Shown piece by piece: positions 32,590 to 50,372 of a DNA stretch of 50,372 nt. The DNA comes from Desulfobacteraceae bacterium. Lineage in GTDB: Bacteria; Desulfobacterota; Desulfobacteria; Desulfobacterales; SURF-7. The DNA is taken from the NCBI GenBank assembly GCA_003599865.1, contig QZKS01000012.1, positions 69,875-120,246 on the forward strand, in the 5' to 3' direction. Numbering within the stretch: the stretch's first letter is position 1; every line of letters starts with the position of its first letter. The position numbers and the translations under genes are program-made. The notes below the pieces were generated by a model. It searched no databases and was not told the DNA's origin. It worked only from the letters and a program-made list of their open reading frames with translations.

Positions 32590-33060
32590 CTACTCCTTTT
32601 TTAATACCCCAAACTGAAAATTGGGGTACCCGGCCATTCCAGCCGTTTTCATGATGTCATTGATCGTTTTGAACGAGAGCCGCCTGTCACACAAAAACAG
32701 GATAGACTCCTTTTTTCCCTCCCGGCGGGCGATTAATTCCCTATAGAGCTTTGAATCCTTGAGACCGGCAGGATCGAGCCCTTCTATCTTTCCATCCTGG
32801 ATCACGGCAATCTGTTCATCACCCAGGTACAGGCTGTTACGGGATAAAACCAGCTTGATGTGATCATGGTAATCCAGTTTTGCATTGGATACCGGAAGTT
32901 CAAGATCCTGCTCCAGCTTCATGGTTTCCGGTTGATCCGAAAATGAAAAGAGCAGGAAAATCAGGATAATCGTAAACATATCCATCATGGACGTAATCTG
33001 CAGTTTGGGCGGAATGAACGCTTTCCGTCTTCTGTCTCGTTTGCCAAGTGCCATATTCAT
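32590..33060 (-). CDS. TolR/ExbD-family motor protein 2 (AglQ/AglS-like)
   Basis: A 156-residue protein with a short basic cytoplasmic tail, one TM (about residues 22-42) bearing the key Asp in LQITSMMDMFTIILIFLLF, and a periplasmic ExbD domain with ILFLCDRRLSFKTINDIMKTA. In TolR/ExbD/MotB-like proteins this Asp is the proton-carrying residue. This is the second of two ExbD-type genes after one TolQ-type gene, the same 1+2 set as Myxococcus AglR-AglQ-AglS. Which of the two matches AglQ or AglS is not decidable here. It is an inner-membrane protein using the proton gradient. Confidence 0.88.
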   Translation of the reverse strand: MNMALGKRDRRRKAFIPPKLQITSMMDMFTIILIFLLFSFSDQPETMKLEQDLELPVSNAKLDYHDHIKLVLSRNSLYLGDEQIAVIQDGKIEGLDPAGLKDSKLYRELIARREGKKESILFLCDRRLSFKTINDIMKTAGMAGYPNFQFGVLKKE

Positions 33061-33085
33061 TACCTCGGATTCAGCTCATCCCGGC

Positions 33086-33598
33086 TCAACCCACTTTTCC
33101 CGAAAGAACCACTTTGGGGAAAAGCGGATTTTCATGATCATATCTTGCAATATCCATTGTCTGAATGATGGTGTCATACACAACATTTTCTTCCGGTATG
33201 ATTATGACCGTATCACTGGCCGGGAAACCGGCCTTGATCTTTTCCAGACAATCCGCAAGTGTTCTCATGGCCTGTTCATCATTTCCCGACCGGTCTATTT
33301 TCTTTTCCAGACCTTTTATTCCCTCTTCATCCAATCCTTCGGAAAGAACCGTCACTTCGATCTGTTGTGCTGCAATCTCCACAACCACCGTCAGTTTGAT
33401 ATTCTTTTTGATTTCCGTTTCCGCGGATTGTTCGTTTTCTGAAAGTACCGGAACGGAAGTGTTAATCGCCTTCAGCTGGAAAAAACCGGCAGACATCAGC
33501 AAAAAGGGAATCAATACGAGAAACATATTCATGATCGGAACCATATCCAGGTCTGTTTCTTCTGCATCCGCTCTTCGTTTTTTTCTCAGGATTGACAT
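33086..33598 (-). CDS. TolR/ExbD-family motor protein 1 (AglQ/AglS-like)
   Basis: A 170-residue protein. The N-terminal basic tail is followed by TDLDMVPIMNMFLVLIPFLL (residues about 15-34), where the Asp before VPIMNMF is the TolR/ExbD proton-relay residue. One TM is followed by a periplasmic domain with VVVEIAAQQIEVTV, LADCLEKIKAGFPASDTVII and ENVVYDTIIQTMDIAR. It overlaps the TolQ-like gene by 13 bases, so the two are translated together. It differs clearly in sequence from the second ExbD-type protein, so the pair is not a recent duplication. Confidence 0.9.
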   Translation of the reverse strand: MSILRKKRRADAEETDLDMVPIMNMFLVLIPFLLMSAGFFQLKAINTSVPVLSENEQSAETEIKKNIKLTVVVEIAAQQIEVTVLSEGLDEEGIKGLEKKIDRSGNDEQAMRTLADCLEKIKAGFPASDTVIIIPEENVVYDTIIQTMDIARYDHENPLFPKVVLSGKVG

Positions 33599-34227
33599 TC
33601 CAGCTCCTTTTCTCTCTTGATGGAAGACAATACATTAAACAGGCTGAGCGCTTTCGCCTCCAGCTGATCGATTATAAATTCCCCCCGGTTATTGAGAAGA
33701 TAAAAACCAACCAGGCACGGAATCGCGACAATCAATCCAAAGGCAGTCGTCAGCATGGCCACCGATATCCCGCTTGCCAGAATCTCCTGCTTCATGGCGC
33801 CTGTCGCACTGCTGACCCCCTGGAAAGCGCCGATCAGGCCGATGATCGTGCCGAGCAGCCCGAGAAGTGTAGAGATGTTGGCAAACATGGTCAGGAGATT
33901 GATGCGGGCTTTTACCATGGGAATTTCTTCCAGTATTTTTTCTTCCAGCGCGCGCTCAATATCCTTATCCCTCTTGTCGGACTTCAAAAGTCCTGCCTTT
34001 AAAATCCTTCCCAGGGGATGCTTTTCAATTTTCGCGCATTCCTCCATCGCCCCCCGGAAATTCATTTCATGAAGTCTTCTCAAAATTTTTTGAAACGGGC
34101 TGTCCATGTTCATTTTCAGACGAAGATACAGAAAACCGGCTCTTTCACAGAACAGAGCAAAAGCCACAATGGAAACCGTCAGAATCACGTACATAAACAT
34201 CCCGCCGCTCTGAAATAACGAAAACAT
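33586..34227 (-). CDS. TolQ/ExbB/MotA-family motor protein (AglR-like)
   Basis: 213 residues from the ATG at 34227, chosen for AAGGAG seven bases upstream. Three TM segments: about residues 8-28, 112-135 and 153-175. The family core LTMFANISTLLGLLGTIIGL followed by IGAFQGVSSATGA and ISVAMLTTAFGLIVAIPC matches the TolQ/ExbB proton-channel region. It forms, with ExbD-type partners, a proton-driven inner-membrane motor. It is the first gene of the 12-gene operon. The family also includes TolQ of the Tol-Pal system, but no tolA, tolB or pal is nearby; AgmX- and TPR-type neighbours point to an AglR-type role. Confidence 0.9.
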   Translation of the reverse strand: MFSLFQSGGMFMYVILTVSIVAFALFCERAGFLYLRLKMNMDSPFQKILRRLHEMNFRGAMEECAKIEKHPLGRILKAGLLKSDKRDKDIERALEEKILEEIPMVKARINLLTMFANISTLLGLLGTIIGLIGAFQGVSSATGAMKQEILASGISVAMLTTAFGLIVAIPCLVGFYLLNNRGEFIIDQLEAKALSLFNVLSSIKREKELECQS

Positions 34228-34619
34228 AGAACTTCTCCTTGATGATGGTTGCATGATCTGAATACATCAGATTTGTGCTCGATAACCTCTGTTTGTTGAC
34301 TGCTCATGATTTCAATTCCTGTGCCGGCACCGGAATCATCTCCATAACCGTTCGAATCCAAAAACCATTTAAAAAATTTTCACCGCCGGATTCCGTTTCG
34401 TTCCCGGCCAAACCCTTCATATTTCGCGATGAATTACGATATTTCATCACAACTTTCATATCCCACCATCCATCCATCCTCTTCATTCAACCGGTAAAAA
34501 CGGAATTCTGCTTGCAAAACCAACTGAGATTGTTTACAAAAATAAAAAAGAATCACCGATATGAAGAATGGACGCGGATCCGATCCTCTTTGCCCAATTG
34601 AAAAAAGGTCAACATCATT
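34228..34619. promoter_or_regulatory. Divergent control region (motor operon and hybrid kinase)
   Basis: About 390 bases between divergent genes. ATCTGA (34256-34261) and TCAGAT (34267-34272) form a perfect inverted repeat just upstream of the tolQ-like start, a possible operator. On the plus strand TTGCAA (34512-34517) and TACAAA (34535-34540), 17 apart, are a weak sigma-70-like pair before the kinase. No gene is supported; short frames here lack binding sites. Confidence 0.4.
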
Positions 34620-37268: not shown

Positions 37269-37622
37269 TCACACTGTCTCGGAAAAAATAATACCGGTCA
37301 GTTCTTTCATTCTTTCCCGAAGCGCAACCAGTTCCTCAGGAGGAAGTTGCCGGATAACCTCATTGGTTTCCCGGTTGGTAATGGTAACCACCACCTGATC
37401 CGTATCATTGTTCACGCGAAATCCAAGGCTTGTCTGCAACACATTCATATAGTTTTCCAGCGACTTCACAATTTCCTGAGTTTCGCTGACCGAAATCGAT
37501 TGTGTATTGGTCTTTGCCTCCTGGGTCCCGTTGTTTCTTCTGGCATTTCCATCCATTCCGGAAATGAATTTGCCATCATTTGCCATTGATGCGTTTTTGA
37601 CTTCAGATGCGTTCACATCCAT
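37269..37622 (-). CDS. flaG: FlaG family flagellar protein
   Basis: A 117-residue protein. The C-terminal FlaG domain shows LGFRVNNDTDQVVVTITNRE, then VIRQLPPEELVALRERMKEL, diagnostic for FlaG. The N-terminus is polar and low-complexity, rich in Asn and Ser. FlaG influences filament length in several bacteria. It closes the fliD-fliS-fliT-like operon, and converges with the hybrid kinase gene with only 24 bases between stops. No hairpin terminator is clear in that gap. Confidence 0.92.
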   Translation of the reverse strand: MDVNASEVKNASMANDGKFISGMDGNARRNNGTQEAKTNTQSISVSETQEIVKSLENYMNVLQTSLGFRVNNDTDQVVVTITNRETNEVIRQLPPEELVALRERMKELTGIIFSETV

Positions 37623-38048: not shown

Positions 38049-38558
38049 TTATACCGATATGGATGTGCTTTTTCCGTTATACGCATGATAGCCGGTAACC
38101 GGTCCCGGCGAACTTGCGGGAATGGACGCCGTCTCTGTCCGTTCTCTGTTCTGAGCAGCTGAAGTGTCCGCTTTTTTACCGCCCCTTTCTCCCATGACAT
38201 CCTTTTCCCAGATTGCCCTGAGCTTTTCAATATACCCGTATGATCGATCCAGTATCCTGATGTCATTGCTGATGGATACTTTCGGCAATTCCATCAGGAT
38301 CGCCATATACAGTCCCCTCAAAAAATCAACGGATTCATCCTGAATAGTGGTATCCAGACAGGTGTTCAGTTCCGACACGATGGCGATCACTCTTCCCAGG
38401 TTTTCTCCCCGTTTCCGGATATCTCCCTGGTCCACCCCTTCCCTGGCCAATCGAATATGTTTCAAAGCGCCATCATACAGCATCAGAATCAGCCGTTTCG
38501 GGTCCATACCTTCAAATTGATTGCTTCGATACATATCATACCCGGTGCATGCTGCCAT
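38049..38558 (-). CDS. fliS: Flagellin chaperone FliS
   Basis: A 169-residue protein. The conserved FliS start YRSNQFEGMDPKRLILMLYDGALKHIRLA (residues about 10-38) is clear, then RGENLGRVIAIVSELNTCLD and LRGLYMAILMELPKVSISND. It has a longer, Ser/Thr-rich C-terminal tail (about 35 residues) than typical FliS. FliS binds the C-terminus of flagellin in the cytosol, preventing early polymerisation before type III export. It lies between fliD and the fliT-like gene. Confidence 0.94.
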   Translation of the reverse strand: MAACTGYDMYRSNQFEGMDPKRLILMLYDGALKHIRLAREGVDQGDIRKRGENLGRVIAIVSELNTCLDTTIQDESVDFLRGLYMAILMELPKVSISNDIRILDRSYGYIEKLRAIWEKDVMGERGGKKADTSAAQNRERTETASIPASSPGPVTGYHAYNGKSTSISV

Positions 38559-38596: not shown

Positions 38597-40303
38597 TCAG
38601 CTTTTTTGATTGGAAGAATCGTAACTGCTGAAAATACTGGTGAGATAATTTGCCTGAGCATTCATTTGTCCAATATACATATCCAGTTCCACAAACTGAC
38701 GGCCAAGAAGCGCATAGCGCTTATCCAGACGGGCTGTGGCTTCCTCAATATCTTTTTCAAGCCTGGATTGTTCCGTAACGGAAAAATCGGTTTCCGTCCG
38801 AATCATACCCGTGGAACTGGTCAGGTTCCGCAGCTTTTCATTTAAAATATCGCCCAGTCCGGGACGGCCGGTCTCTTCATTGGTAACAAATAATGCGGCC
38901 AGCCCTTCGCGGTTCTGCGCAATCGCCGTATCCAGGATCTCCTCATCAATGGTAATGCTTCCATCCCGGTTGATCGAAACGCCCAGATTGAAAAGACTTT
39001 TAATCCCCGTCCCCGTCTCAACAACGCTAGTCATGAGGCCGTTCAGTTCCGTCGGCAATCCCTTGATGCTATAAGAAGTTGCGAGAATCCCCCATTCTTT
39101 GGTTTCCGTATTATACCGGCTGTGGCTGCGGATCTCCTGGATTGCATCATTGTATGCTTTAATCAGTTCGATGATCTCGGTTCTCACCAGTTCATCATTA
39201 GCCGATGTGGTGATGGTAACCTCGCCCTCTTTCTTCAGAGTCAGTTTCGCTCCCTGAATGATGTCATCAATTTCCGTGTTGGTCTGTCGCTGATAGATGA
39301 TTCCTTCAGCGCTGATCTCCGCATTCAGGGAAGCCCCTTCCGCACCCTGGACCTCGGTCATCTGCATGCCGCTGATGACTATCCGGTTGTCCTCACCGGT
39401 CCCGTTGGCGGTCAGCACCAGCCGGTAGGGATTTTCCTTGCTGCCGTCGTTGATCACCTTTGCCGTAATACCGGCATTTTTTACATCACTGTTGATGGCA
39501 TCCGCCAGCCCGTTAAACGTGGTGTCCGCCTCAACGGAAACGGCAACCGCCTCGCCATCACCCAGCGTATAGGAAAATTGCACAGCCGGTGCCTTGAATT
39601 GAAAATCTTCCGGCTGCACGGTTACCATGACACGGTTCGATTCTACGCTGCCTTCGGCAGTAGAAGCGATTCTGAGATAAAACAGTCCGTCCTCTCCCTG
39701 AAAGGCAGAGGCCGTAACATAGGTTCCGCCGGCACCATCCTGATTGACGGAATCTGCATTGATTGCATCTACGATATCATTCAGTGTTGAACCCTGAGGA
39801 AGGATCATGCTGATCGTTCGAACCGAATCGCCTGAGCCATAAGTAATGCTCATGACTTCCTCTTCATCCGAAATCGATGCTGAATCGGCATTGCCGAATC
39901 CGGTAGTCGACACCTGACTAGTTGGAATATAGGTTGATGTGTCAACACTTGCCACACCCGCGGTCTGCCAGGAACTCTTGGTTGCCATGCGAAGTATCTC
40001 AATGGAGCTCGAAGTCACTGCGGCTCCTGAGAGAACGGTTGCCGTAGCGATCTCTTCATCGGAACTTGCCACGGTCCGTTCCAGAAAATTGGACCCCAGG
40101 GACAGGGTCAGGGCATGCGACTTTACAGCGATCAGCTTTGCCTCGACCTCATCATATTTGGTCATCCGCTCTTCAATAACGGTAATCTCATTTTTCATGT
40201 TCTCGATGGGCTGCTCATCGATCTTCCGGAAATCCTCCAGCATCTGCTGAAGTTCAAATCCCGAACCCACCCCAAGACTTGTCACACTTCCTAATGAAGC
40301 CAT
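38597..40303 (-). CDS. fliD: Flagellar hook-associated protein 2 (filament cap) FliD
   Basis: A 568-residue protein. FliD_N is seen in GVGSGFELQQMLEDFRKIDE (residues about 11-30) and a coiled helical stretch after it. The central beta-rich region holds Ser/Thr- and Ala-rich repeats. FliD_C shows GLAALFVTNEE, LEKDIEEATARLDKRYALLG and FVELDMYIGQMNAQANYLTS near the C-terminus. FliD caps the growing filament and folds incoming flagellin; here it must handle an unusually large flagellin. A sigma-28-like promoter lies directly upstream (40384-40412), just past the fliC terminator, so fliD can be expressed apart from fliC. Confidence 0.94.
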   Translation of the reverse strand: MASLGSVTSLGVGSGFELQQMLEDFRKIDEQPIENMKNEITVIEERMTKYDEVEAKLIAVKSHALTLSLGSNFLERTVASSDEEIATATVLSGAAVTSSSIEILRMATKSSWQTAGVASVDTSTYIPTSQVSTTGFGNADSASISDEEEVMSITYGSGDSVRTISMILPQGSTLNDIVDAINADSVNQDGAGGTYVTASAFQGEDGLFYLRIASTAEGSVESNRVMVTVQPEDFQFKAPAVQFSYTLGDGEAVAVSVEADTTFNGLADAINSDVKNAGITAKVINDGSKENPYRLVLTANGTGEDNRIVISGMQMTEVQGAEGASLNAEISAEGIIYQRQTNTEIDDIIQGAKLTLKKEGEVTITTSANDELVRTEIIELIKAYNDAIQEIRSHSRYNTETKEWGILATSYSIKGLPTELNGLMTSVVETGTGIKSLFNLGVSINRDGSITIDEEILDTAIAQNREGLAALFVTNEETGRPGLGDILNEKLRNLTSSTGMIRTETDFSVTEQSRLEKDIEEATARLDKRYALLGRQFVELDMYIGQMNAQANYLTSIFSSYDSSNQKS

Positions 40304-40383
40304 ACCAATCTCCTGTTTACTCTTTCCCGCATCTCAACCGGCTGACCGGCTAACGGGCAAATCCCCATACTTCCTTTATAATA

Positions 40384-40412
40384 CCATCGGCAGTATCGGA
40401 TATGAACTTGAA
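40384..40412 (-). promoter_or_regulatory. Sigma-28-like promoter of fliD
   Basis: On the minus strand TTCAAG, 15 bases from the end of CAAG, then GCCGATGG (40384-40391). The -10 box is close to the FliA consensus GCCGATAA, and CAAG is shared with the fliC promoter. It lies about 80 bases before the fliD start. Confidence 0.72.
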
Positions 40413-40445
40413 TAAAAAAAGGGCCCTGGAAAATTTCCAGGGCCC
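40411..40445 (-). terminator. Intrinsic terminator of fliC
   Basis: A perfect 12-bp stem, GGGCCCTGGAAA and TTTCCAGGGCCC (40421-40432 with 40434-40445). On the minus strand it is followed by TTTTTTTATT. It lies 27 bases after the fliC stop (40473) and separates it from fliD, so the abundant fliC mRNA is insulated. Confidence 0.93.
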
Positions 40446-40472
40446 TGGTTAGGGTTTCAGCCAATCAGCCGA

Positions 40473-43400
40473 TTATTGAAGAAGACTCAATACCATCTGA
40501 GAGCTTGCATTGGCCTGGGCTAGTGCGAAAGTACTAGCCTGCATCAGAACCTGCATCTTTGTAAAGGTTGATGCTTCATCTGCAAAATCCACCTCACGGA
40601 TACTGGATTCCGCAGCCCTTACATTGACAGCCGTGGTCGTGACGTTGGCGATGGTTGAGTTCAACTGATTCTGAACAGAACCAAGGTCGGATCGGACCTT
40701 ATCCAGGTCTTTCAACGCTGCATCTGCAATAGCTATGGTCTTCTGTGCATCTTCCTGGGTCAGAACGCTGATGTTGGAGAGCCTGTTCAACTCAGTGTCG
40801 GTTACATCGGTCGTGACCGATCCGGAGTTCTCGTTGGCACCCAGAACGCTGCCTGCCGCCAGAACCGAACCTTCCTGCAGACTCATCTCCACGGCAATAT
40901 TATTGACGCCCGCTGTGGTGATCTCGTCGGTCAACACCGTGCCGGTGGTGTATGTCATACCATCTGCGGCAACAATGTTATTGGTCAGGTAGGTGCCTCT
41001 GGCGATTACACTGCCGGCTGCCAGGGAAGACCCCTCAGCCAGATTCATGCCGCCGTCACCGCTTACGGTTTCAGCGTTGGCCAATGTGATGGCACCGCCC
41101 AGAGTCGATCCGTTGACCAGAACCGAACCGCTGCCGATGGTGGAACCGGCCGCCAAATCCAGATCTCCGGTCAGTGTAAGGGCGGATGCCAGGGTGGCCT
41201 CGCCGCCGATCGTCGATCCTGCCGCAATCAATGTGCCGACATTGTTCTGAATCACACTGCCGGATGCCAGATCCATATCGCTGTTCAGGGTCATGGCATT
41301 GACCAGGGTCATGCCGGATGCCAGGGTGGCATCATTGGACAGGATGGAACCGGTCTGCATCACGCTGCCGTCGGCAATGGTCGACCCGGCACTCAGGGTC
41401 ATGTCACCGCCCAAAATGGCGCTGTTCTGCAGGGTGATGGCCGTGCCCACTGTGGTACCGCTTTCCAGGAAGGTGCCGGCGCCAAAGGAATGGCCCGTCA
41501 CCAGTGTGTCTTCGCCGATGGTTGCTGCGGCAATGAGGGTGGCGTCTACACCCAGATATCCGGAACCGCCTGCTGTCGTGGCCGTACCGATGATGGTACC
41601 GCTGCCGAAGCTATGGCCGGTTACGAGGGTTGCAGCACCGTCTGCACTGATGGTGGCATTGGCGATCAGGGTTGCGTCCACACCCAGATACCCGGAACCG
41701 CCTGCTGTCGTGGCAGTACCGATGATGGTACCGCTGCCGAAGCTATGGCCGGACACCAGGGTGACTGCGCCGGCAGAGAGGGTTCCGTTGGCGATGAGTG
41801 TTGCATCTACGCCCAGATATCCGGAACCGCCTGCTGTCGCAGCGGTGTTGATGATGGATCCACTACCAAAACTATGGCCGGAAGCCAGAGTATAGGCCGA
41901 GTCAACAGCAAGAGTCTCCGCCGTCAACAGGGTGGCTGACCCACCGATGGAGGAACCGGCGGTGAATTCACTATCTCTGCCGATTACAGTGCCGGCTTCC
42001 AATACGTATGCCGCTGTGGTGGTGATGGCCGAGGTCAGGGTGATGGCCGTATCCACGGAAGATCCGGCTGCCAGAACCGTGCCGTTGATGAAGCGGCTGC
42101 CGCCTTGAAGCGTAGTAGCGGCCGCCAGGGTCTGGGCACCCGACAGGGTAACCGTTCCTTCAGCAGCCGTACCGGCGGTCAGAACGCCGTTCGTAGTATT
42201 GATATCCTGCGTGAATACCGTGCCTGATCCGATTGTCGTACCGTTGGCCAGGGTGCTGTTGGCGGCCACGGTGCTGGTGCTGGTGGTAGCGGCGGTATCA
42301 CTGATGGTTGTATCGTACTGGGTTGTATGACCGGCAACCAGAGTGGTGCCGACGGCCAGTACGCTGCCGGTCGCACCGGAGGTGGACAGGCTGGTGGTGG
42401 TGGTGTCGATCTGGACCGTCTGGGCCAGACCGCTGGTCAGGGTAGCGCCGGCAGCCAGAACCGTGCCGATGGCCAGGGTAGCGCCGGAACCGACCACGGA
42501 AATGCCTTCAGCTACGCCCGTTGCAGCAATGGTCAGAGCCACACCGGATAGACCGCTGGTGAATCCCTGCCCGGAGGCCAGGACCGTACCCAATGCCAGT
42601 GTCGCGCCGGAACCGAGCACGGATAATCCTTCCGCAACGCCGGTGGTACCGATGGTCAGGGCTACGCCCGAAAGACCGCTGGTAAGTGCCTGACCGGAGG
42701 CCAGAACCGTACCCAAGGCCAGTGTTGCGCCGGAGCCAAGCACGGATGCGCCTGCAGCCACGCCCGTGGCACCGATGGTCAGGGCCACGCCGGAAAGACC
42801 GCTGGTAAGTGCCTGACCGGAAGCCAAAACCGTGCCGACGGCCAGAGTCGAGCCGCTGACCAGGGTACTCGCGGAAGTTGCCGTATTGGAGGCTGCGATG
42901 GTCATGTCGGATTGGAGCTGTTCCGTGGAGGAAAGATTCAGCACTGTCCCGGCCTGGAGGGTGGAACCGGTGATGATGGAACTGGCACCGGTAGTGTTGG
43001 CCACTTCCTCAACACGGCCGTTGCCGCCAAAAGCTGAGTTGCCGCCGATAAGCGTTCCTGCGCCCAGAACCGAATTCTGACCAAGGGCCGAACCGCTGGT
43101 CAGGGTGGATGCCTCGGTGGTGGTGACAGCGGAAGACAATTGTCCTCCAGTGATATTCTGATCGGCAGTCCAACCTGCTCCCAGAATGGAGTTCTGGGCC
43201 AGTGTGGAACCGGCTCCCAGGGTGGAGTCAATGGTGGTGGTGGTGTCGCCGGAGGTTTCCAGATCGCTGGAAATGGCCACAACTCCGCCGTCTCCCACGT
43301 CAAGGACCTGAATTTCAGCAGAGCCTTCCTGATTGAGGGTTATATAACCAAGGGTACTCATGTCAGTGCCCCTCATGATGGCATCTGTGCCCAGCCCGCT

Positions 43401-44357
43401 GCCGACCGCACTACCGTAGCTGACTTCGAGAGCTCTCTGGTCGGTGGACGACAGGGTCATATAGCCGGCATTGTCCACGCTGGCGACGACACCGTGCTGA
43501 GAGGTTTTCTGGTTGATGGCCTTGACCAGAGCGCCGTCAGAGTCATTGGCCACGACATTCAACTGTCCGATACTGACGCCGTTGATGGCAAAATCCGAAT
43601 CCGTTGTGCCGGCGGCAATGTTGAGAGCAGTCTTGCTTTCCACCTTGGCCGATGCGGAAATACCGAGGACATCGCTCAATTTATTAATGGAGTCGGCCAC
43701 CGCGCCCAGGCTGTTTTCCCGGGAGTTGTTGTACTGAATGTTGGTGGACTCCACCACAAAGCTTTTGTTTTGCAGGTTGCTGTAAATAGCCAGCTCTACC
43801 GAACCGGGCTGGTCGCCGGTCACCGTCATTTTACCGGTGGTGACATGACCGATTTTGGTGGACTGGGCAGAGGCAACGGAAATATTGACTGTCTCTCCGG
43901 AATAGGCGCCCACCTGAAATTTCTTGTTGGTAAAATTACCGTTCAACAGTTTCTGGTTGTTAAAAGCCGTCGTCTTGGCAATAATATCAAGTTCTTCCAT
44001 GAGTTTGGTGATATCCGCCTGGATGGCTTTCCGTGAATCGGTCGTCTGACCGTCCTGGGCTGCCTGGATGGCCTTGGTTTTAATCGTGTTAACAATATTA
44101 ATTGATTCTTCCAGGGCTGCATCAGCGGTCTGCACAATGTTAATTCCGTCATTGGCGTTCCGGATGGCCTGGCCCAGACTCATTGCCTGGGATTTAAGGG
44201 AATCAGCGATAGCCATGCCCGAAGCATCATCGGCTGCTTTGTTGATGCGCAGACCGGAAGACAGTTTCTCCAGTGAAGATGACAGCAAGCCATCATTCTT
44301 AACCATGTTTTTGTGGGCGTTTAACGCTGATACGTTGGTATTGATTCGTAATGCCAT
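40473..44357 (-). CDS. fliC: Giant flagellin with repetitive middle domain
   Basis: A 1,294-residue protein, against about 270-500 for usual flagellins. The first about 170 residues are standard D0/D1 (MALRINTNVSALNAHKN, LSSGLRINKAADDASGMAIA, AIRNANDGINIVQTADAALE). The last about 110 are standard C-terminal D1/D0 (LDKVRSDLGSVQNQLNSTI, ESSIREVDFADE, VLMQASTFALAQANASSQM). Between lies about 1,000 residues rich in Gly, Ser, Thr, Ala, Leu and Val, with short strands such as GSTLAVGTVLASG and DLDLAAGSTIGSGSVL, suggesting a beta-solenoid surface domain. Two stretches are tandem repeats. GGAGGT lies seven bases before the ATG. It is exported by the flagellar type III system with FliS; the Ser/Thr-rich insert is a likely glycan target of the adjacent operon. 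Confidence 0.95.
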   Translation of the reverse strand: MALRINTNVSALNAHKNMVKNDGLLSSSLEKLSSGLRINKAADDASGMAIADSLKSQAMSLGQAIRNANDGINIVQTADAALEESINIVNTIKTKAIQAAQDGQTTDSRKAIQADITKLMEELDIIAKTTAFNNQKLLNGNFTNKKFQVGAYSGETVNISVASAQSTKIGHVTTGKMTVTGDQPGSVELAIYSNLQNKSFVVESTNIQYNNSRENSLGAVADSINKLSDVLGISASAKVESKTALNIAAGTTDSDFAINGVSIGQLNVVANDSDGALVKAINQKTSQHGVVASVDNAGYMTLSSTDQRALEVSYGSAVGSGLGTDAIMRGTDMSTLGYITLNQEGSAEIQVLDVGDGGVVAISSDLETSGDTTTTIDSTLGAGSTLAQNSILGAGWTADQNITGGQLSSAVTTTEASTLTSGSALGQNSVLGAGTLIGGNSAFGGNGRVEEVANTTGASSIITGSTLQAGTVLNLSSTEQLQSDMTIAASNTATSASTLVSGSTLAVGTVLASGQALTSGLSGVALTIGATGVAAGASVLGSGATLALGTVLASGQALTSGLSGVALTIGTTGVAEGLSVLGSGATLALGTVLASGQGFTSGLSGVALTIAATGVAEGISVVGSGATLAIGTVLAAGATLTSGLAQTVQIDTTTTSLSTSGATGSVLAVGTTLVAGHTTQYDTTISDTAATTSTSTVAANSTLANGTTIGSGTVFTQDINTTNGVLTAGTAAEGTVTLSGAQTLAAATTLQGGSRFINGTVLAAGSSVDTAITLTSAITTTAAYVLEAGTVIGRDSEFTAGSSIGGSATLLTAETLAVDSAYTLASGHSFGSGSIINTAATAGGSGYLGVDATLIANGTLSAGAVTLVSGHSFGSGTIIGTATTAGGSGYLGVDATLIANATISADGAATLVTGHSFGSGTIIGTATTAGGSGYLGVDATLIAAATIGEDTLVTGHSFGAGTFLESGTTVGTAITLQNSAILGGDMTLSAGSTIADGSVMQTGSILSNDATLASGMTLVNAMTLNSDMDLASGSVIQNNVGTLIAAGSTIGGEATLASALTLTGDLDLAAGSTIGSGSVLVNGSTLGGAITLANAETVSGDGGMNLAEGSSLAAGSVIARGTYLTNNIVAADGMTYTTGTVLTDEITTAGVNNIAVEMSLQEGSVLAAGSVLGANENSGSVTTDVTDTELNRLSNISVLTQEDAQKTIAIADAALKDLDKVRSDLGSVQNQLNSTIANVTTTAVNVRAAESSIREVDFADEASTFTKMQVLMQASTFALAQANASSQMVLSLLQ
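41483..41900 (-). repeat. Flagellin repeat set A (129-132 base units)
   Basis: Tandem imperfect units within fliC. The shared segment CCCAGATATCCGGAACCGCC recurs at about 41551, 41683 and 41812, so spacing is 132 and 129 bases. Each unit encodes HSFGSGTIIGTATTAGGSGY then LGVDATLIAN and a variable link. Differences between units lie mainly in the link. Confidence 0.85.
42428..42870 (-). repeat. Flagellin repeat set B (exact 123-base units)
   Basis: The segment GACCGCTGGT recurs at 42428, 42551, 42674 and 42797, exactly 123 bases apart each time, so each unit is 41 codons. Units encode SGLSGVALTIG, VLGSGATLALGTVLASGQ with few changes; the outer ones are more diverged. The exact period suggests in-frame duplication by unequal crossover or slippage. 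Confidence 0.9.
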
Positions 44358-44465
44358 GATCTAACCTCCATGTGTGGGTGACGGGGATTCCTTTCCCCAT
44401 TTTTGTGAAATTCGTAAATGAAAGGATAACTACTTTTGTTTTAATATAAAATGTTAATTGATTTC

Positions 44466-44478
44466 GATCACCTCCTTA
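44466..44478 (-). promoter_or_regulatory. Extended Shine-Dalgarno-like box in the fliC leader
   Basis: On the minus strand TAAGGAGGTGATC, a perfect 13-base complement of the 16S rRNA 3' end. It lies 109 bases before the fliC start and about 40 after the predicted transcript start, with no suitable start codon next to it. The true fliC site is ACCTCC on the plus strand at 44364-44369. Possible roles are ribosome standby or transcript stabilisation. Confidence 0.6.
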
Positions 44479-44526
44479 TAAATTTTGATACAGGATTTTC
44501 GAACGGAATTTTTAGCTACAGAAGAT

Positions 44527-44553
44527 ATATCGACAAATGAAAAAAATTCTTGA
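44527..44553 (-). promoter_or_regulatory. Sigma-28-like promoter of fliC
   Basis: On the minus strand TCAAGAAT (44546-44553), an 11-base T-rich spacer, and GTCGATAT (44527-44534). The spacing equals the FliA consensus TAAAGTTT-N11-GCCGATAA, and the -10 box matches in six of eight positions. The predicted start near 44520 gives a leader of about 160 bases. Confidence 0.75.
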
Positions 44554-44584
44554 GGGTTTTTCAGAATAAATCATAAGGAAAAAA

Positions 44585-45829
44585 TCAGTAAGAGGCGCGG
44601 TATTGAAAGAGGTCGATGATGCGCTGGGCCCGGTGGCAATAGGTGTGCTCGGCAAGCACCCGCTGCCTGCCGCGGGCTGCAATTTCCAGCCGCAGGTCCG
44701 GAAGGCCCCGGTAATAATCCGTCAACTGTTTCAATTCATTCAGGTTGCGATAGCAGGCCACGTCCCGGCCCACGTCAAACAGTTCATCCAGGGCGGTTCG
44801 ATAATCCGTCAGCAGGAACGCCCCGCAGGCGGCCACATCAAATACCCGCTGATTCACGGCTGCGGACAGCTGGCTGCCGGTGACATTCAGATTGATCCGG
44901 GCCGAGTTATATACCAGGGGCGCCATCCGATGATAATCGACCGGGCCTTTCAGATGCAAGCCGGGTTTGCTCAGCCGGTTCCAGCCGGGACCGCCGTAGA
45001 CATGCACCCGCAGGTCATCCGGCAGCAGGCGGATGGCATCCATGCGGTCACGGGCACCGATTTCATCATATAAGGAAAGAAGAAAAGAGGTGTAATCATC
45101 CTGCCTGGAAAAATCGTCCAGGGCCTTTCGGGTTTCATCCGGGAAACCATCCCGAAAGGCATGAATGATTTCCGTCACGGTAACGCCCGGGTGCCGGCGG
45201 ACCGCGTCCACGATATTCCGGGCAAAACCCACGAGCCATTCGTGCCAGCCGTTCTGAATCCGCTCCAGATCATAATCCGCTGTCGTGCTGACCGACCCGA
45301 TAAAACTGACATCCGCCTCAAATTCCGGTTCCGGGGCAAGCGGCCGGAATACCTTGGGATTGGTGGCCAGGGGCAGATAAAAGGCTTCCTTTTTGTGCTG
45401 TCTTCGGAATTCGGCAAGATGGTTCCGGTCCCAGATAAAAACCGTATACCGGGGGGAATGCAGGGTCAGCATGGAACTGATAAAACCGGTCAGGAGCGGA
45501 TTGTCAAAAAACAGGGAAATATAATTAATTTCCATTTCCTCAAAAAAATGGCGTTCCGGATCATTGGGGGGCAGGGAAATAAACACGCTGTTGCCGTACC
45601 CGACGGCAAAATCCGGCTCGAAATGTTTTAATTCTTTACGGATATTTTCAAAATAGGCGATTTTTTCCTCATCCGATGCCATGGTTTCCAGAAGACGGAA
45701 ATCAATCAGGAACACCGGATGGCCAAGCTCTTCAAACGCTGCCGCAAAATCCAGCATGATGTTGGGGGCGGCAATACCCTTTTCCACCACCACCACTACC
45801 CGGTATGTTGATTTTCGACAATTCGGCAT
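44585..45829 (-). CDS. CgeB-like glycosyltransferase
   Basis: A 414-residue cytosolic protein. The N-terminal half resembles DUF3880 (VVVVVEKGIAAPNIMLDFAA, LFFDNPLLTG, YTVFIWDRNHLAEFR, YLPLATNPKVFRPL, VSFIGSVS). The C-terminal half is a GT-B-like Glyco_trans_1_2 domain (HVYGGPGWNRL, LHLKGPVDYHRMAPLVYNSA, INLNVTGSQLSAAVNQRVFDVAA, GAFLLTDYRTALDELF). CgeB-type enzymes are often near flagellin genes and transfer sugars onto surface proteins or sugars. It is the last gene of a four-gene operon next to fliC, so flagellin modification is likely. Donor sugar and acceptor are unknown. The gap to the methyltransferase gene is five bases. Confidence 0.85.
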   Translation of the reverse strand: MPNCRKSTYRVVVVVEKGIAAPNIMLDFAAAFEELGHPVFLIDFRLLETMASDEEKIAYFENIRKELKHFEPDFAVGYGNSVFISLPPNDPERHFFEEMEINYISLFFDNPLLTGFISSMLTLHSPRYTVFIWDRNHLAEFRRQHKKEAFYLPLATNPKVFRPLAPEPEFEADVSFIGSVSTTADYDLERIQNGWHEWLVGFARNIVDAVRRHPGVTVTEIIHAFRDGFPDETRKALDDFSRQDDYTSFLLSLYDEIGARDRMDAIRLLPDDLRVHVYGGPGWNRLSKPGLHLKGPVDYHRMAPLVYNSARINLNVTGSQLSAAVNQRVFDVAACGAFLLTDYRTALDELFDVGRDVACYRNLNELKQLTDYYRGLPDLRLEIAARGRQRVLAEHTYCHRAQRIIDLFQYRASY

Positions 45830-45834
45830 GGTTT

Positions 45835-46620
45835 TCAGGCTCCCGGTTTCCGGAACAGCAAATGATATTGAGCAGTCAGCAGATCGGCAGTTGCATCCGG
45901 CGTAAAGGAGAACAGTCCAAAACAGCCGTGCAGATCTGCGGAACAGTCCTCCCCATTGAGGTGTTTCCGGTAAACATGATCATAAAATTCCAGGATACGG
46001 GGTTCAATGATTTGCTCCGGATTCAAATCCTTATGCCATGCAGCATCCCGTATGGACTTGGAAAATCGAACCAGCTCATAGCCCGCATTGGTAAACATCT
46101 CCACTGCCGTGTCTGCGGTAAAAAAACGAAGATGGGTTCGATCCAGCAGACCCAGTTCCGTGTAGTCGAAACGCCCTGCCAGGAGCCTCAGGATGACAAA
46201 CAGATTCCGGAGGTTCGGGATGCTGGCCAGAACATAACCGCCTTTTTGAAGATAGGCCTGGTGCTTGCCGACAACAGCCCATGGATCATAGAGATGCTCC
46301 AGAACATCGGCATACACAATGAGATCAAAATAGCTGTCATATGCCGGGGGCAGTTCGATCCGGCAGGCATCGCCGGTAAACACCCTGTCCAGAAAACGGG
46401 CTGCCTTCTCCGAGGCTACCTGCGAATATTCAATGCCGACCACCTCCTCGTAACCGAGCTGGTTTTTCAGATAATATCCCAGAGCGCCGCCTGAACAGCC
46501 CACGTCCAGGGCTCGTTTCAGCCCATTCGGCGCCATGGCGGCCACTCCCGGTACCGTGAAATCATATTCCTTTTCCTGGGGAACCGGAGAATTTTTCTCT
46601 GTTGGAACAATAGGGTTCAT
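45835..46620 (-). CDS. Class I SAM-dependent methyltransferase
   Basis: A 261-residue protein. Motif I is ALDVGCSGGALGYYLKNQ near residue 37; then VVGIEYSQVASEKA, FDLIVYADVLEHLYDP near residue 105 and GGYVLASIPNLRN. The HLYDPW context is typical of Methyltransf_11/23-type enzymes in polysaccharide and glycoprotein clusters. The start overlaps the stop of the TPR-glycosyltransferase gene as ATGA. It may methylate a flagellar glycan; the substrate is not visible from sequence. Confidence 0.88.
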   Translation of the reverse strand: MNPIVPTEKNSPVPQEKEYDFTVPGVAAMAPNGLKRALDVGCSGGALGYYLKNQLGYEEVVGIEYSQVASEKAARFLDRVFTGDACRIELPPAYDSYFDLIVYADVLEHLYDPWAVVGKHQAYLQKGGYVLASIPNLRNLFVILRLLAGRFDYTELGLLDRTHLRFFTADTAVEMFTNAGYELVRFSKSIRDAAWHKDLNPEQIIEPRILEFYDHVYRKHLNGEDCSADLHGCFGLFSFTPDATADLLTAQYHLLFRKPGA

Positions 46621-48347
46621 GACAAAACATCCTCTTTCAGTTGATGTTGAACCCAGCGGAAAACCGTCTCCCAGTCACCGGGTCTGTGCTGCCGGAAAAT
46701 CCTCATGGATGGATACCAGGCCGATGTTTCGCCGGTGGTCCCCCACACCCAGTAAGGCTGATGATAGCGCAGGGTCCAGACAGGTTTTCCCAAAGCGCCG
46801 GCCAGATGCACCAGCGCCGTATCCACGGAAATGACCAGGTCCAGATTCATGATAACGGCGGCCGTGTCGGAAAAATCATGGAGTTCCGGTCCGAGATCCA
46901 CAATACCGGCGAAGCCGGGTGTTTCCCGCAGCCTGTCCGCGGCCGGACCTTTCTGCAGGCTGTACAGGTTCACGGACGGCAGGGATAACAGGGAAACAAA
47001 ATGACCCGGGTCACAGGAACGCATGGAATTTTCCGGATGAGCCGGATTACCGGACCAAACCACGCCGATGTTGAACCCGTTTTCGGAAATCCGGCTGTGC
47101 CATTTCCCTGTTTTTTCAGCCGGGGCATGCAGATAGGGAACTGCCATGGGAATCGTCTCCACGGTGGTCTGAAAGATCCCGGGAAGGCTCAGCAGGTGTA
47201 CACCGGCATCGGCCCTTTGGGCGTTTTCCGGAGCAGGTGCCGCCATCTCATCCATGGCGGACAGGGATTTCAACAGGGGGTGCAGGACCGGAGGTGCTTC
47301 CAGGATAACCCGCCCGCAGCGATTTTTAACCAGGGAAAGATAGCGGACAAACTGAATCGTGTCGCCAAAGCCTTGCTCCGCCTGCACCAGAATGCATTTG
47401 CCGGGCAGCGGGCTTCCGTCCCAGGACGGCAGATCCGGATAAACCGGATTGGCCGAAAGCCAGTCCGAACGCCTCTGCCGCCATTCATATTCCGGCCAGG
47501 CTTCCCGGAACCGGCCGGTCAGCAGCAGAAGAAGCGAACGGTTCACACGGGCTTCCGCATATCCCGGATCACCATGGACAGCATCCGCATACCGCTGGAT
47601 GGCATCATCATATTGGCCGAGTTCCTGCAAGGCCAGGGCCCAGTTATAAAAAATCCGGGAAGATGAACCACGGGCCGTCCGGATGGCCCGGCGGTATTCT
47701 TCGATGGCGTTTTCCGAATCCCCCTGAAGCTGGTACATGCGGCCCAGATTATACCGGGCCTCGGAAAAATCAGGGCTCAGATTCACCGCACGGATATAGC
47801 AATGACCGGCTTCCCGGATTTTACCCATTTCCTGAAGGGTCAGCCCCAGATTGTTGAGCGCAATGACGTTTTCGGGCTCGAGCCGGACCGCCGCCCGGTA
47901 ATGCTCAATAGCTGACCCGTTGTTTCCCTGCCGGTGGAGGATGCACGCCAGATTGAAGCGGATTTCCGCCACATCCGGGCGCAGACGAGCCAGATTGACG
48001 TAGGCGTCTCTGAAGTCCGGACGGTTTTCGATAGCCTTTACATAGCTGCGGATGGATGAAACCGTATCGCCCAATGCTTCCTGAACCGCGCCCAGGCTGT
48101 TATGGAATTCCGGTGAACCGGGGTTGACGGCAATGGCCCTTTGGATCAGCCGGACCGCATCTTCAAAACGCCCGGACTGGTAGGCGATGAGTCCTTTCAG
48201 GTGCCATGCATCGGCATGATCCGGCTCCTCCTCCAAAATGGCCGAATAACTCCGGTCCGCTTCGGAAAGCTTCCCATCCTGATGGCATTTCACAGCCGCT
48301 TTCAGCATGGCGCCGGTTTCCATTGAATCAGCCGCAGGGTTGCTCAT
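46617..48347 (-). CDS. TPR plus GT9-like glycosyltransferase
   Basis: 576 residues from the ATG at 48347, which overlaps the end of the upstream gene by 20 bases; the longer frame to 48395 is unsupported. About the first 270 residues are canonical TPR units (EEPDHADAWHLKGLIAYQSG, PEFHNSLGAVQEALGDT, ARYNLGRMYQLQGDSENAIE, IFYNWALALQELGQYDDAIQ). A GT-B domain follows, ADP-heptosyltransferase-like (LVQAEQGFGDTIQFVRYLS, NIGVVWSGNPAHPENSMR, LVISVDTALVHLAGALGKPVW). This fusion type is common in bacterial surface and protein glycosylation loci. Flagellin is the likely target from context. Cytosolic. Confidence 0.87.
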   Translation of the reverse strand: MSNPAADSMETGAMLKAAVKCHQDGKLSEADRSYSAILEEEPDHADAWHLKGLIAYQSGRFEDAVRLIQRAIAVNPGSPEFHNSLGAVQEALGDTVSSIRSYVKAIENRPDFRDAYVNLARLRPDVAEIRFNLACILHRQGNNGSAIEHYRAAVRLEPENVIALNNLGLTLQEMGKIREAGHCYIRAVNLSPDFSEARYNLGRMYQLQGDSENAIEEYRRAIRTARGSSSRIFYNWALALQELGQYDDAIQRYADAVHGDPGYAEARVNRSLLLLLTGRFREAWPEYEWRQRRSDWLSANPVYPDLPSWDGSPLPGKCILVQAEQGFGDTIQFVRYLSLVKNRCGRVILEAPPVLHPLLKSLSAMDEMAAPAPENAQRADAGVHLLSLPGIFQTTVETIPMAVPYLHAPAEKTGKWHSRISENGFNIGVVWSGNPAHPENSMRSCDPGHFVSLLSLPSVNLYSLQKGPAADRLRETPGFAGIVDLGPELHDFSDTAAVIMNLDLVISVDTALVHLAGALGKPVWTLRYHQPYWVWGTTGETSAWYPSMRIFRQHRPGDWETVFRWVQHQLKEDVLS

Positions 48348-50372
48348 GTTCCCGTTCTTTCTGCGGACCGATCTCGGAACATCCGCCGACCGCAATTCCG
48401 GATTTTACCTTGAATTGTTGATACGCTTCCAGAGCAGCCGGAAGCTGATCTGCCGCCTTGTAGCAATCCCCGATTTTTTTCAGGATCAGGACATGCTCCG
48501 GCAGTGCCAGGATGCAGCGCTCGTAGGCAGCGACGGCATCCAGCGGCTGCCCGGCCGCTGACAGGTTATCACCGATGTTCTCCCAGTACCGGGCGTAATT
48601 CCGGTCCAATGCCACGGCTCTGTCCAGACCGGCAATACCCCTGGTAAAATCCTTTGCGGCAAAATGGACATCGGCCAGGAGCAGATGAAGCTCCGGATCA
48701 TCCGCTGAAAAATCAAGTGCCCTCTCATAACTCTCAGCCGCTTCTTCCGGATGGTTTTTCCGGACATGCAAAAGGCCGTTCAGGCAGCACAACCGTTTTT
48801 TGACATCGTCGGTCAGCAGGGCGGCAAAAGATTTGTTCTGCTGCAGGGCATCATACCAGAAGCGGATCTCGCGGTCGGCAGGAAGCGGATTTCCATCACC
48901 GGTTTTCGCTTCCATACGCTTCATCTCCTCTTCAAAAAGGGTTTTCAGCGAAGTCCGGATGGTGTCGCTGGATTCACAGTATTGCAGCCCTCTCAGCAGG
49001 ATGGCGCCGATATCATAACCTTCGGATCGGAGGCGCTCCGCATACCGGATATAGGTGTCTCCCATTTTTTTCCGGAAGGTTGTAATTTGTTCATGGCAGG
49101 AGGAGTCTTTTTGACATGCTTCCCGGAAATGGAATTCCGCCTTGTCAAATTCGGTCTGGCAGGCAGCGATCATCCCCAGAAGCAGAGAAATCTCAGCCTG
49201 TCCGCCGGAAGCGCCGTCAAGGGGCTTCAACACGGATTGGGCCAGCACAATATCGTCTGATTCCATATACAGCCTTGCCAGTTTAATGCGGGAGGCGGTG
49301 CTGTCGCCCTGTTTTTCCATTTCCCCGCGTATCTTGGCTTCCTGTGAAAAATGAGAGAGCGCCTTTGAAAGGTGCTGATGGAAAAAGTCCAGAACATTTT
49401 TTCTGACCCCGTTGATCTCATCAAGCCGCTCCATGCTTTTCAGCAGCCACTCGATATATCTGTCCGGTTTTCCCTCCAGCATTTTAATGACATGCAGATG
49501 ACGCTCGCTCCGACGGACACCTTCCAGGGTGATTTCATCCAGGTACTCCCATATCTGATTGGCTGCATCCGCTTCGTCATGAAGGTTGTTGAGTTCCGCA
49601 ATCATCTGCTGAAGATTTTTGGGCAGGGTCTTCAGGGAAGTATACATGCCGCCGCGCTGCTGAAGCCTTACAAGCTCCCGGGTAATGGTAATCGATCGGG
49701 CATCGGCTTTTTTGATCAGCTTCCGGAGATGATTGACTTTGGAAAGCATGGTTCGCAAACTGAAAGCCGGCTCCCTTCCCAAATTCCGATCAACAGAGGC
49801 GGTTCGGGCAGTGATGGCGGCAATGTCCTGATCCGCGGTGCAAAATTGATCAAGGGCTTTTTGCAGCGTGAAAATTTCCGTGCCGTCAATATGGGCGCCT
49901 CCTTCGGTAGCATTGATATAATGCCCCGGCGTTCCGGCGATAAATTGTTCAAAATAGGCTTTCATGCTGAAAAAGCCGCGGTTGGTCGGCACTTTATTTC
50001 CCAGAATGCCGTCCACCCAGATGACATCGCTGGACTGGAGAAAGGTGTCAATGGCGGTCTGGTTGGTCAGGACCGTTTCATCGGCATGGTCTTTGTCGTC
50101 CGAAAAAGCCAGATCCTGCCCCATAAAGATAATCGGCGAGCAGCCCATGACCACGGCCGCCTGCAAGCTTAAATGGGCCACGGTTTTAGCCCCCGGCATG
50201 GAAACGGAACCGCCCAGGAGTATGTTGAGGCGGTTTTCCAGAGGCCGGCCTGTAAAGGTCCAGTACACCTGGGACGCAGGAAAGGTTTTGGGCACCCGGG
50301 GGGTCACCCAGGAGGAACAGATCAGCCCGATATGGTCCGTATGGTTCAGCATCGGAATGGCACCGGCAATCT
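48328..50372 (-). CDS. Maf/DUF115 flagellin glycosyltransferase with TPR tail (5' partial)
   Basis: The frame is open through the right edge, so the start is outside the window; the ATG at 50352 is internal. The visible N-part is the end of the DUF115/MptE-like Maf domain (GGSVSMPGAKTVAHLSLQAA then VVMGCSPIIFMGQDLAFSDD). A long helical region follows (about residues 200-400). The last about 250 residues are TPR units (AEISLLLGMIAACQTEFDKA, LHLLLADVHFAAKDFTRG, LKKIGDCYKAADQLPAALEA). Maf proteins load nonulosonic acids such as pseudaminic acid onto flagellin. It heads the four-gene glycosylation operon upstream of fliC. No sugar-synthesis genes are inside the window. Confidence 0.87.
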   Translation of the reverse strand, partial: IAGAIPMLNHTDHIGLICSSWVTPRVPKTFPASQVYWTFTGRPLENRLNILLGGSVSMPGAKTVAHLSLQAAVVMGCSPIIFMGQDLAFSDDKDHADETVLTNQTAIDTFLQSSDVIWVDGILGNKVPTNRGFFSMKAYFEQFIAGTPGHYINATEGGAHIDGTEIFTLQKALDQFCTADQDIAAITARTASVDRNLGREPAFSLRTMLSKVNHLRKLIKKADARSITITRELVRLQQRGGMYTSLKTLPKNLQQMIAELNNLHDEADAANQIWEYLDEITLEGVRRSERHLHVIKMLEGKPDRYIEWLLKSMERLDEINGVRKNVLDFFHQHLSKALSHFSQEAKIRGEMEKQGDSTASRIKLARLYMESDDIVLAQSVLKPLDGASGGQAEISLLLGMIAACQTEFDKAEFHFREACQKDSSCHEQITTFRKKMGDTYIRYAERLRSEGYDIGAILLRGLQYCESSDTIRTSLKTLFEEEMKRMEAKTGDGNPLPADREIRFWYDALQQNKSFAALLTDDVKKRLCCLNGLLHVRKNHPEEAAESYERALDFSADDPELHLLLADVHFAAKDFTRGIAGLDRAVALDRNYARYWENIGDNLSAAGQPLDAVAAYERCILALPEHVLILKKIGDCYKAADQLPAALEAYQQFKVKSGIAVGGCSEIGPQKEREHEQPCG

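Follow-up and report, generated by a model that had tools for sequence, protein, structure and literature searches.

The stretch analysed here (the window) comprises 50,372 nucleotides of contig QZKS01000012.1 from a Desulfobacteraceae bacterium, and contains the gene of a giant flagellin on its reverse strand (40473..44357 (-)). The frame is open from an ATG start and encodes 1,294 amino acids. Starting at the N terminus, the D0/D1 region comprises residues 1-143 (43929..44357 (-)), matched by Pfam Flagellin_N at residues 5-143 with E 1.2e-43 (148.9 bits against a cut-off of 26.6). The chain continues as a middle part of the Helicobacter/Campylobacter type (residues 144-365; 43263..43928 (-)) that aligns with the PDB entries 9ygu, 9yh1 and 6x80, and then as an 830-residue hexapeptide insert resembling a left-handed beta-helix (LbH; residues 366-1195; 40773..43262 (-); boundaries approximate). 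The C-terminal end is formed by Pfam Flagellin_C at residues 1209-1293 (40479..40733 (-)), with E 1.2e-25 and 90.1 bits against a cut-off of 23. With both terminal domains present the protein is confirmed as a bacterial flagellin (FliC), in agreement with a first-pass annotation of this DNA that had described a giant flagellin with ordinary ends.

The three best PDB matches of the first ~320-410 residues are 9yh1 (Helicobacter pylori FlaB), 6x80 (Campylobacter jejuni) and 9ygu (H. pylori FlaA), all named as flagellar filaments. Identity to these is 40-42%, with Z scores of 21.7-30.5 over 356-360 residues; the highest, 30.5 across 360 residues, relates 9ygu to an AlphaFold2 (AF2) model of residues 51-1245. 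Among NCBIfam models the best, flagellin B, covers residues 1-365 with a score under its own cut-off. Because the H. pylori and C. jejuni flagellins align there, residues 1 to ~365 are assigned to an ordinary epsilon-type flagellin and ~366-1195 to the insert. The insert of about 1,000 residues at 170-1180 proposed earlier is thus real, but begins near residue 366 and is about 830 residues long. Three other identities of the gene were rejected. The FlgL model scores 66.1 bits, below its cut-off of 127.2, and the genome has its own FlgL gene, located downstream of flgK. That the gene is a pseudogene or an artefact of a frameshift is contradicted by the open frame, by the two intact ends, and by the same build in L055, a locus labelled as part of a Desulfosudis oleivorans metagenome-assembled genome, whose flagellin is 92% identical and 1,295 amino acids long. 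Lastly, no peptidase family occurs among the seven Pfam matches at E <= 1, as would be expected of a proteolytic flagellin (flagellinolysin).

The composition of the insert is as the first-pass annotation had stated, rich in a few small and aliphatic residues and poor in aromatic and charged ones. Thr, Gly, Ala, Ser, Leu and Val together make up 645 of the 830 residues (243 being Ser or Thr), while there are one Trp, eight Tyr, ten Phe, five Arg, five His and no Lys, Cys or Pro. The sequence is periodic. Self-identity is highest at lag 6 (0.221), followed by lags 12 (0.185) and 18 (0.161), and lies between 0.075 and 0.127 at all other lags up to 20. A repeat of five or nine residues was rejected, since identity is 0.096 at both of these lags against 0.221 at lag 6. 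Hexads of the form that we take to be the LbH pattern number 77, compared with a mean of 24.6 in 2,000 shuffles (standard deviation 4.3, maximum 41), and the longest run of hydrophobic residues at an exact spacing of six is 15, whereas shuffles give no more than 10. An alternative, PROSITE-like hexad core, also in the form that we assume for it, is weaker (50 against 35.7 in shuffles; standard deviation 5.0, maximum 52).

A search with the insert alone finds 20 distinct PDB sequences at E <= 10, the best being LpxA at E 1.2e-4 and the sole match below E 0.001. All 20 are proteins that we take to belong to LbH families: LpxA, GlmU, LpxD, sugar acetyltransferases, gamma-carbonic-anhydrase-like subunits and eIF2B gamma. 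Among the 21 members of an alignment that includes the window protein, 18 match Pfam Hexapep and 16 match LbH_EIF2B at E <= 0.01; in five relatives scanned singly the Hexapep cut-off is exceeded in four and that of LbH_EIF2B in one. A hexapeptide repeat of the LbH type is therefore supported by sequence, and is a closer name for what had been called a solenoid-like repeat. Within the insert lie two tandem repeats, one of 123 bp (41 residues) with 3.3 copies at 42454..42855 (-) and one of 132 bp with 2.7 copies at 41529..41882 (-), which suggest how the insert grows.

The pattern is not confined to this protein. A scan of genome contigs with the first 434 residues of the giant flagellin gave 33 loci, labelled Desulfobacterales, Desulfobulbaceae, Deltaproteobacteria, Proteobacteria and similar. 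In 21 of these a motif-based search found 22 flagellin frames of at least 700 amino acids, all but two complete, the complete ones being 803-1,392 amino acids long. Every one of the 22 has an excess of hexads over shuffles (z 6.2-17.6). Five more loci have cut flagellin frames only (330-616 amino acids), and in L075 and L077 no frame was found by motif. The loci of Campylobacterota and Magnetococcales (L082-L087) have flagellins of 276-521 amino acids without the hexapeptide pattern. A model built from the last 104 residues of the insert matches 11 of 297 genomes of the phylum at E <= 1e-5, that of the bacterium itself included.

In a set of 96 genomes (that of the bacterium and 95 relatives) 47 have a Flagellin_N match, and 18 stretches with large frames were taken from this set. 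The hexapeptide insert is found in ten relatives (G001, G002, G006, G024, G037, G045, G050, G054, G062 and G088); it is absent from the G020 and G031 giants and from three large flagellins of G045 (724-1,083 amino acids). One locus of G054 (L035), where no frame was found by motif, lies outside this comparison. In a tree of 57 flagellins, where the window is represented by its relatives and many inner forks are weak, the 27 hexapeptide rows can be accounted for by 5 label changes, where shuffled labels need 19.2. All of them fall in one lineage of 39 rows with support 100/100, and the insert may have had a single origin.

There are three Flagellin_N matches in the bacterium's own genome: the giant flagellin, FlgL, and an insert-free flagellin of 279 amino acids on another contig (L023 8140-8979 (-)). 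The first-pass annotation had found one flagellin gene, which holds within the window but not for the genome as a whole. Downstream of the giant flagellin gene lie fliD (568 amino acids, 38597..40303 (-)), fliS for the flagellin chaperone (38049..38558 (-)) and flaG (37269..37622 (-)). Since it is the sole large flagellin of the genome and its gene is near fliD, fliS and flaG, the giant protein is likely to be the main filament flagellin, as had been surmised. An insert-free flagellin of 279 amino acids occurs also in G001 (L054 1903-2742 (-)) with the same neighbours, and small flagellin frames of 282-318 amino acids are seen in G003, G006, G024, G037, G054 and G088. FlgK and FlgL are each present in one copy in the bacterium's own genome, so that the giant and the 279-residue flagellin may share one hook.

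Two structures were predicted with AF2, residues 51-1245 of the window protein and the complete 805-residue flagellin of relative L064. The mean predicted local distance difference test (pLDDT) score is 58.9 for the former and 57.5 for the latter, with predicted template modelling scores of 0.37 and 0.43 respectively. In both models strands of two or three residues recur about every six residues across much of the insert. The local score of L064 reaches 70-87 at residues 601-680. On disorder of the insert, which the first-pass annotation had put forward for checking by prediction, the models thus point both ways: there are strands every six residues, yet the pLDDT of the insert is mostly 35-65, and 78-88 at window residues 1111-1170 only.

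We consider it probable, with some reserve, that this is a main filament flagellin, from a sulfate reducer, with an ordinary core and hexapeptide LbH arms forming a coat. The flagellin ends would polymerise into the usual core, made of D0/D1 and the epsilon-type middle domain, with the 830-residue insert folded as LbH arms projecting from it. Since the insert starts and ends on the same domain, a single straight stack is unlikely and the arms most likely lead outwards and return. Each coil of an LbH takes up about 18 residues and rises by 0.48 nm, so 830 residues correspond to at most 46 coils and a contour of 22 nm; for out-and-back arms the extra filament radius would be roughly 11 nm or less. 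Arms lying side by side would make a thick, nearly uncharged, Ser/Thr-rich coat, and the length of the insert would shift by duplication of short units inside one flagellin lineage. Such a coat may be of benefit through surface contact or, in viscous sediment, through stiffness or drag. What we infer from the data above comprises the fold in three dimensions, the course of the arms out and back, the filament thickness, the glycosylation and any such benefit.

Several observations weigh against this structure in addition to the low pLDDT. Hexad runs of four or more span only 471 of the 830 residues. The window protein stays below the Pfam cut-offs, with 21.5 for Hexapep (27) and 23.5 for LbH_EIF2B (54), and for this reason the insert is termed LbH-like and not a family member. 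One of the five relatives scanned singly (L059) matches neither family. Comparison of both models using Foldseek/VIA-align gave flagellins and no LbH among the 50 matches listed, a result that excludes nothing. An LbH fold would thus draw its support from sequence rather than from a confident model. A rather unlikely alternative is that the insert is mostly unstructured and forms a Ser/Thr-rich, O-glycosylated brush, with the hexads a by-product of repeat duplication. The low pLDDT over most of the insert, the 243 Ser or Thr residues, the young tandem repeats and the glycosyltransferase-like genes upstream all agree with a brush. A brush would not need Leu, Ile or Val at a spacing of six, however, and this is kept in all 22 related frames, the complete ones of which vary from 803 to 1,392 amino acids; there are also the sequence matches to LbH proteins.

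Less probable again is that the insert is folded otherwise, as another beta-roll or as strands that pair only between subunits in an outer sheath. The single-chain AF2 models are unsure, and sheaths of outer domains formed between subunits are known for other flagellins, according to the available part of PMC8931119. Against another fold, the sequence matches are specifically to LbH families. The hexad letters also fit what we take to be the LbH pattern. By analogy with proteolytic flagellins the insert might instead be an enzyme, an acyltransferase-like LbH domain carried on the filament, and its nearest sequence matches are indeed LbH enzymes; but these matches are weak, there are just five histidines in 830 residues, and the length of the insert varies freely among relatives. 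We regard an enzyme as very improbable.

The enlargement of the flagellin is accompanied by that of other extracellular parts of the flagellum. In the bacterium's own genome FlgL has 1,268 amino acids (L024 2835-6641 (-)), FlgK 1,501 (L024 6690-11195 (-)) and the FlgE frame 1,147, while FliD is of ordinary size with 568. The corresponding proteins of Escherichia coli have about 317 (FlgL), 547 (FlgK), 402 (FlgE) and 468 (FliD) amino acids. By eye, FlgL has a repeated unit of ~100 amino acids unlike the hexapeptides of the flagellin, and Pfam at E <= 0.01 found no hexapeptide family in FlgL or FlgK.

Lengths were compared across genomes using the longest frame per genome, FlgL being identified as the Flagellin_N match downstream of FlgK; frames run from stop to stop, and contig ends may cut some. 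Flagellin, FlgK and FlgL are all present in 27 of the 96 order-level genomes. In these the Spearman correlation with flagellin length is 0.81 for FlgK and 0.87 for FlgL, and 0.78 and 0.84 on 23 family means. For FliD it is -0.42 (n=26, p 0.03). All 11 genomes with a flagellin frame of at least 1,000 have FlgK of at least 1,129 and FlgL of at least 720. Among the 16 with a smaller flagellin, one of them (G046) with a flagellin frame of only 206 that lies close to the end of its contig, FlgK is at most 936 in 15 (G012 has 1,533) and FlgL at most 706 in all. FlgE measures 916-1,179 in nine of the 11 giant-flagellin genomes, 724 in G062, and 517 and 367 in G002. Independent contrasts were computed on an rpoB tree of 25 genomes, where the midpoint root depends on a single long branch (G077). 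Their r is 0.84 for FlgK (24 genomes), for FlgL (23) and for FlgE (21; G002 left out) alike; five of 30 genomes had no rpoB match and were left out, the exception G012 among them. None of 10,000 permutations reaches the contrast r for any of the three. The contrast for FliD is -0.36 (p 0.10; 22 genomes, with G013 and its frame of 268 left out). The enlarged axis is found also in G020 and G031, where the giant flagellins have no hexapeptides. Within the Desulfobacterales, then, a giant flagellin accompanies giant FlgK and FlgL, and usually FlgE, but not FliD.

The same length comparison was made on a second sample of 98 phylum genomes. The count leaves out the bacterium's own genome and two members of the order, further G124 and G166, whose flagellin frames (200 and 131 amino acids) are likely cut, and genomes lacking FlgK or a flagellin match of at least 100 bits; G127, where FlgL is on another contig, has no FlgL value. 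Flagellin length has a Spearman correlation of 0.32 with both FlgK (n=40, p 0.04) and FlgL (n=39, p 0.04), and of 0.12 with FlgE (n=35, p 0.49). The four genomes with flagellins of 832-1,024 amino acids have an FlgL of 300-529. G160 and G194, whose flagellins are of the hexapeptide type (811-835 amino acids), have FlgL of 300 and 311 and FlgK of 1,417 and 1,083, and G129 has a large FlgK (1,132) despite a small flagellin (284). In G129, G123, G159 and G193 FlgK frames of 968-1,132 amino acids occur together with flagellins of 284-536 and FlgL of 313-317. A general rule that junction size matches filament size was rejected, the coupling being strong in the order and weak or absent across the phylum; for this reason the enlarged axis is regarded as a feature of the order and not a mechanical need. 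It is possible, if somewhat doubtful, that the flagella of the Desulfobacterales include a class of their own, enlarged along the entire extracellular axis, with FliD unchanged and a coat of LbH arms whose length is tuned by repeats, making the thickness adjustable.

The leader of the giant flagellin gene contains a hairpin at 44383..44398 (-) with AAGGA in its loop, which ends ~25 nt before the ATG and which we take to be like a CsrA site. A second ANGGA (ATGGA, 44367..44371 (-)) overlaps the ribosome-binding site. All 25 leaders (the window and 24 loci) have a best GGA hairpin of at least four pairs, which 1.7% of leaders reach after shuffling. GC, CG, TA and AT are all found at the pair (-7,+6), the stems changing while the loop is kept; because the best GGA was chosen in each leader, these pair counts are biased towards pairing. 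In another leader set six of 13 hexapeptide flagellin leaders have at least four pairs, and one of the misses (L029) has a misplaced start. The hairpin occurs with at least four ordinary flagellins and is lacking in three of 279-280 amino acids. Since its spread differs from that of the insert, it is a feature of flagellin leaders in this group and not of the insert. In contig C19 flgK, flgL (ending at 64834), csrA (64652-64804) and fliW (64138-64503) follow one another in this sequence on one strand. The hag gene of Bacillus subtilis is the model of a main flagellin controlled by CsrA and FliW, and by analogy the giant flagellin leader together with csrA and fliW resembles such a system, with the hairpin as a candidate control site in the order. 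No Rfam family matches within 40000-45000 at gathering scores.

Further upstream a box spotted by eye, TCAAGAAT-N11-GTCGATAT (44527..44553 (-)), resembles what we take to be the sigma28 promoter consensus. Of 25 leaders, 19 fit a loosened pattern, which was made after the box had been seen and has no chance control. When the window was scanned strictly for sigma28 sites, 13 were matched where 11.0 are expected by chance; none of them lies upstream of the giant flagellin gene, and a sigma28/sigma54 regular expression had no match in 14 leaders. The sequence AGGAGGTGA (44468-44476), ~119 nt before the flagellin start, is like a strong ribosome-binding site and is found at 91-150 nt in most related leaders.

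Upstream of the flagellin gene, and on the same strand, are a glycosyltransferase-like gene (44585-45829 (-)), a methyltransferase gene (45835-46620 (-)), a gene for a tetratricopeptide repeat (TPR) protein with Glyco_transf_9 (46617-48395 (-)) and an MptE-like gene with TPR (48328-50352 (-)) that is probably cut by the window end. These genes (44585..50352 (-)) are possibly glycosylation genes and may act on the giant flagellin. By eye, similar glycosyltransferase-like and MptE-like genes are divergent in L056, and none were seen in L060. Elsewhere in the window a MotA/ExbB-family gene and two ExbD genes (32590-34254 (-)) lie together, with TPR proteins upstream.

The insert shares with LpxA, GlmU, LpxD and the sugar acetyltransferases a six-residue repeat with Leu, Ile or Val at one position and small residues elsewhere. 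Those proteins are cytoplasmic enzymes. Unlike them, the LbH-like part described here is an insert of a secreted filament protein, is far longer and is poor in charge. The flagellins H. pylori FlaA and FlaB and C. jejuni FlaA are alike in residues 1 to ~365 and in the C-terminal end, but are 508-576 amino acids long and have no insert. A Geovibrio flagellin in the PDB has 793 amino acids.

Giant flagellins are already known from PMC6248924, as are the thick filaments that they build and their scattered occurrence among phyla; the available part of that paper names Desulfotalea psychrophila, of the same phylum, among the bacteria that have them; in an excerpt of PMC8306008 its flagellin is given as 115 kDa. 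The giant flagellins of Bermanella marisrubri and Oleibacter marinus likewise exceed 1,000 amino acids; their D0/D1 is normal, and their very large outer insert is described, from the authors' searches among flagellins only, as duplicated DE regions and a DX insert (PMC6248924, in part). A hexapeptide or LbH insert is unmentioned for them in that portion, so that the window flagellin is set apart from them by description only. In E. coli H7 and H6 and in Achromobacter, the normal core is surrounded by a coat of outer domains, with an effect on motility (available part of PMC8931119); these flagellins are smaller (PDB chains of 546-570 amino acids) and their outer domains are different. A literature search over titles and the beginnings of abstracts, with many journals and preprints outside it, found neither a flagellin with a hexapeptide or LbH insert nor a report of an enlarged axis of hook, junction and filament, and this insert is unmentioned in the accessible parts of PMC7018530 and PMC12221982. 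What seems new, in that no report was found, is the LbH-like insert together with the enlarged axis; giant flagellins as such are not.

Flagellins differ widely in their outer domains, and most of this diversity lacks an explanation. If the proposed structure is true, the left-handed beta-helix would serve in a new role, as a coat of hexapeptide solenoids, and such a fold would be unexpected in the coat of a filament. The related flagellins, from 803 to 1,392 amino acids, offer a natural length series for comparing thickness, stiffness and swimming. Across the order, a large hook, junction and filament with an unchanged cap make the matching of junction to filament testable, and the data from the phylum indicate that such matching is not always needed.

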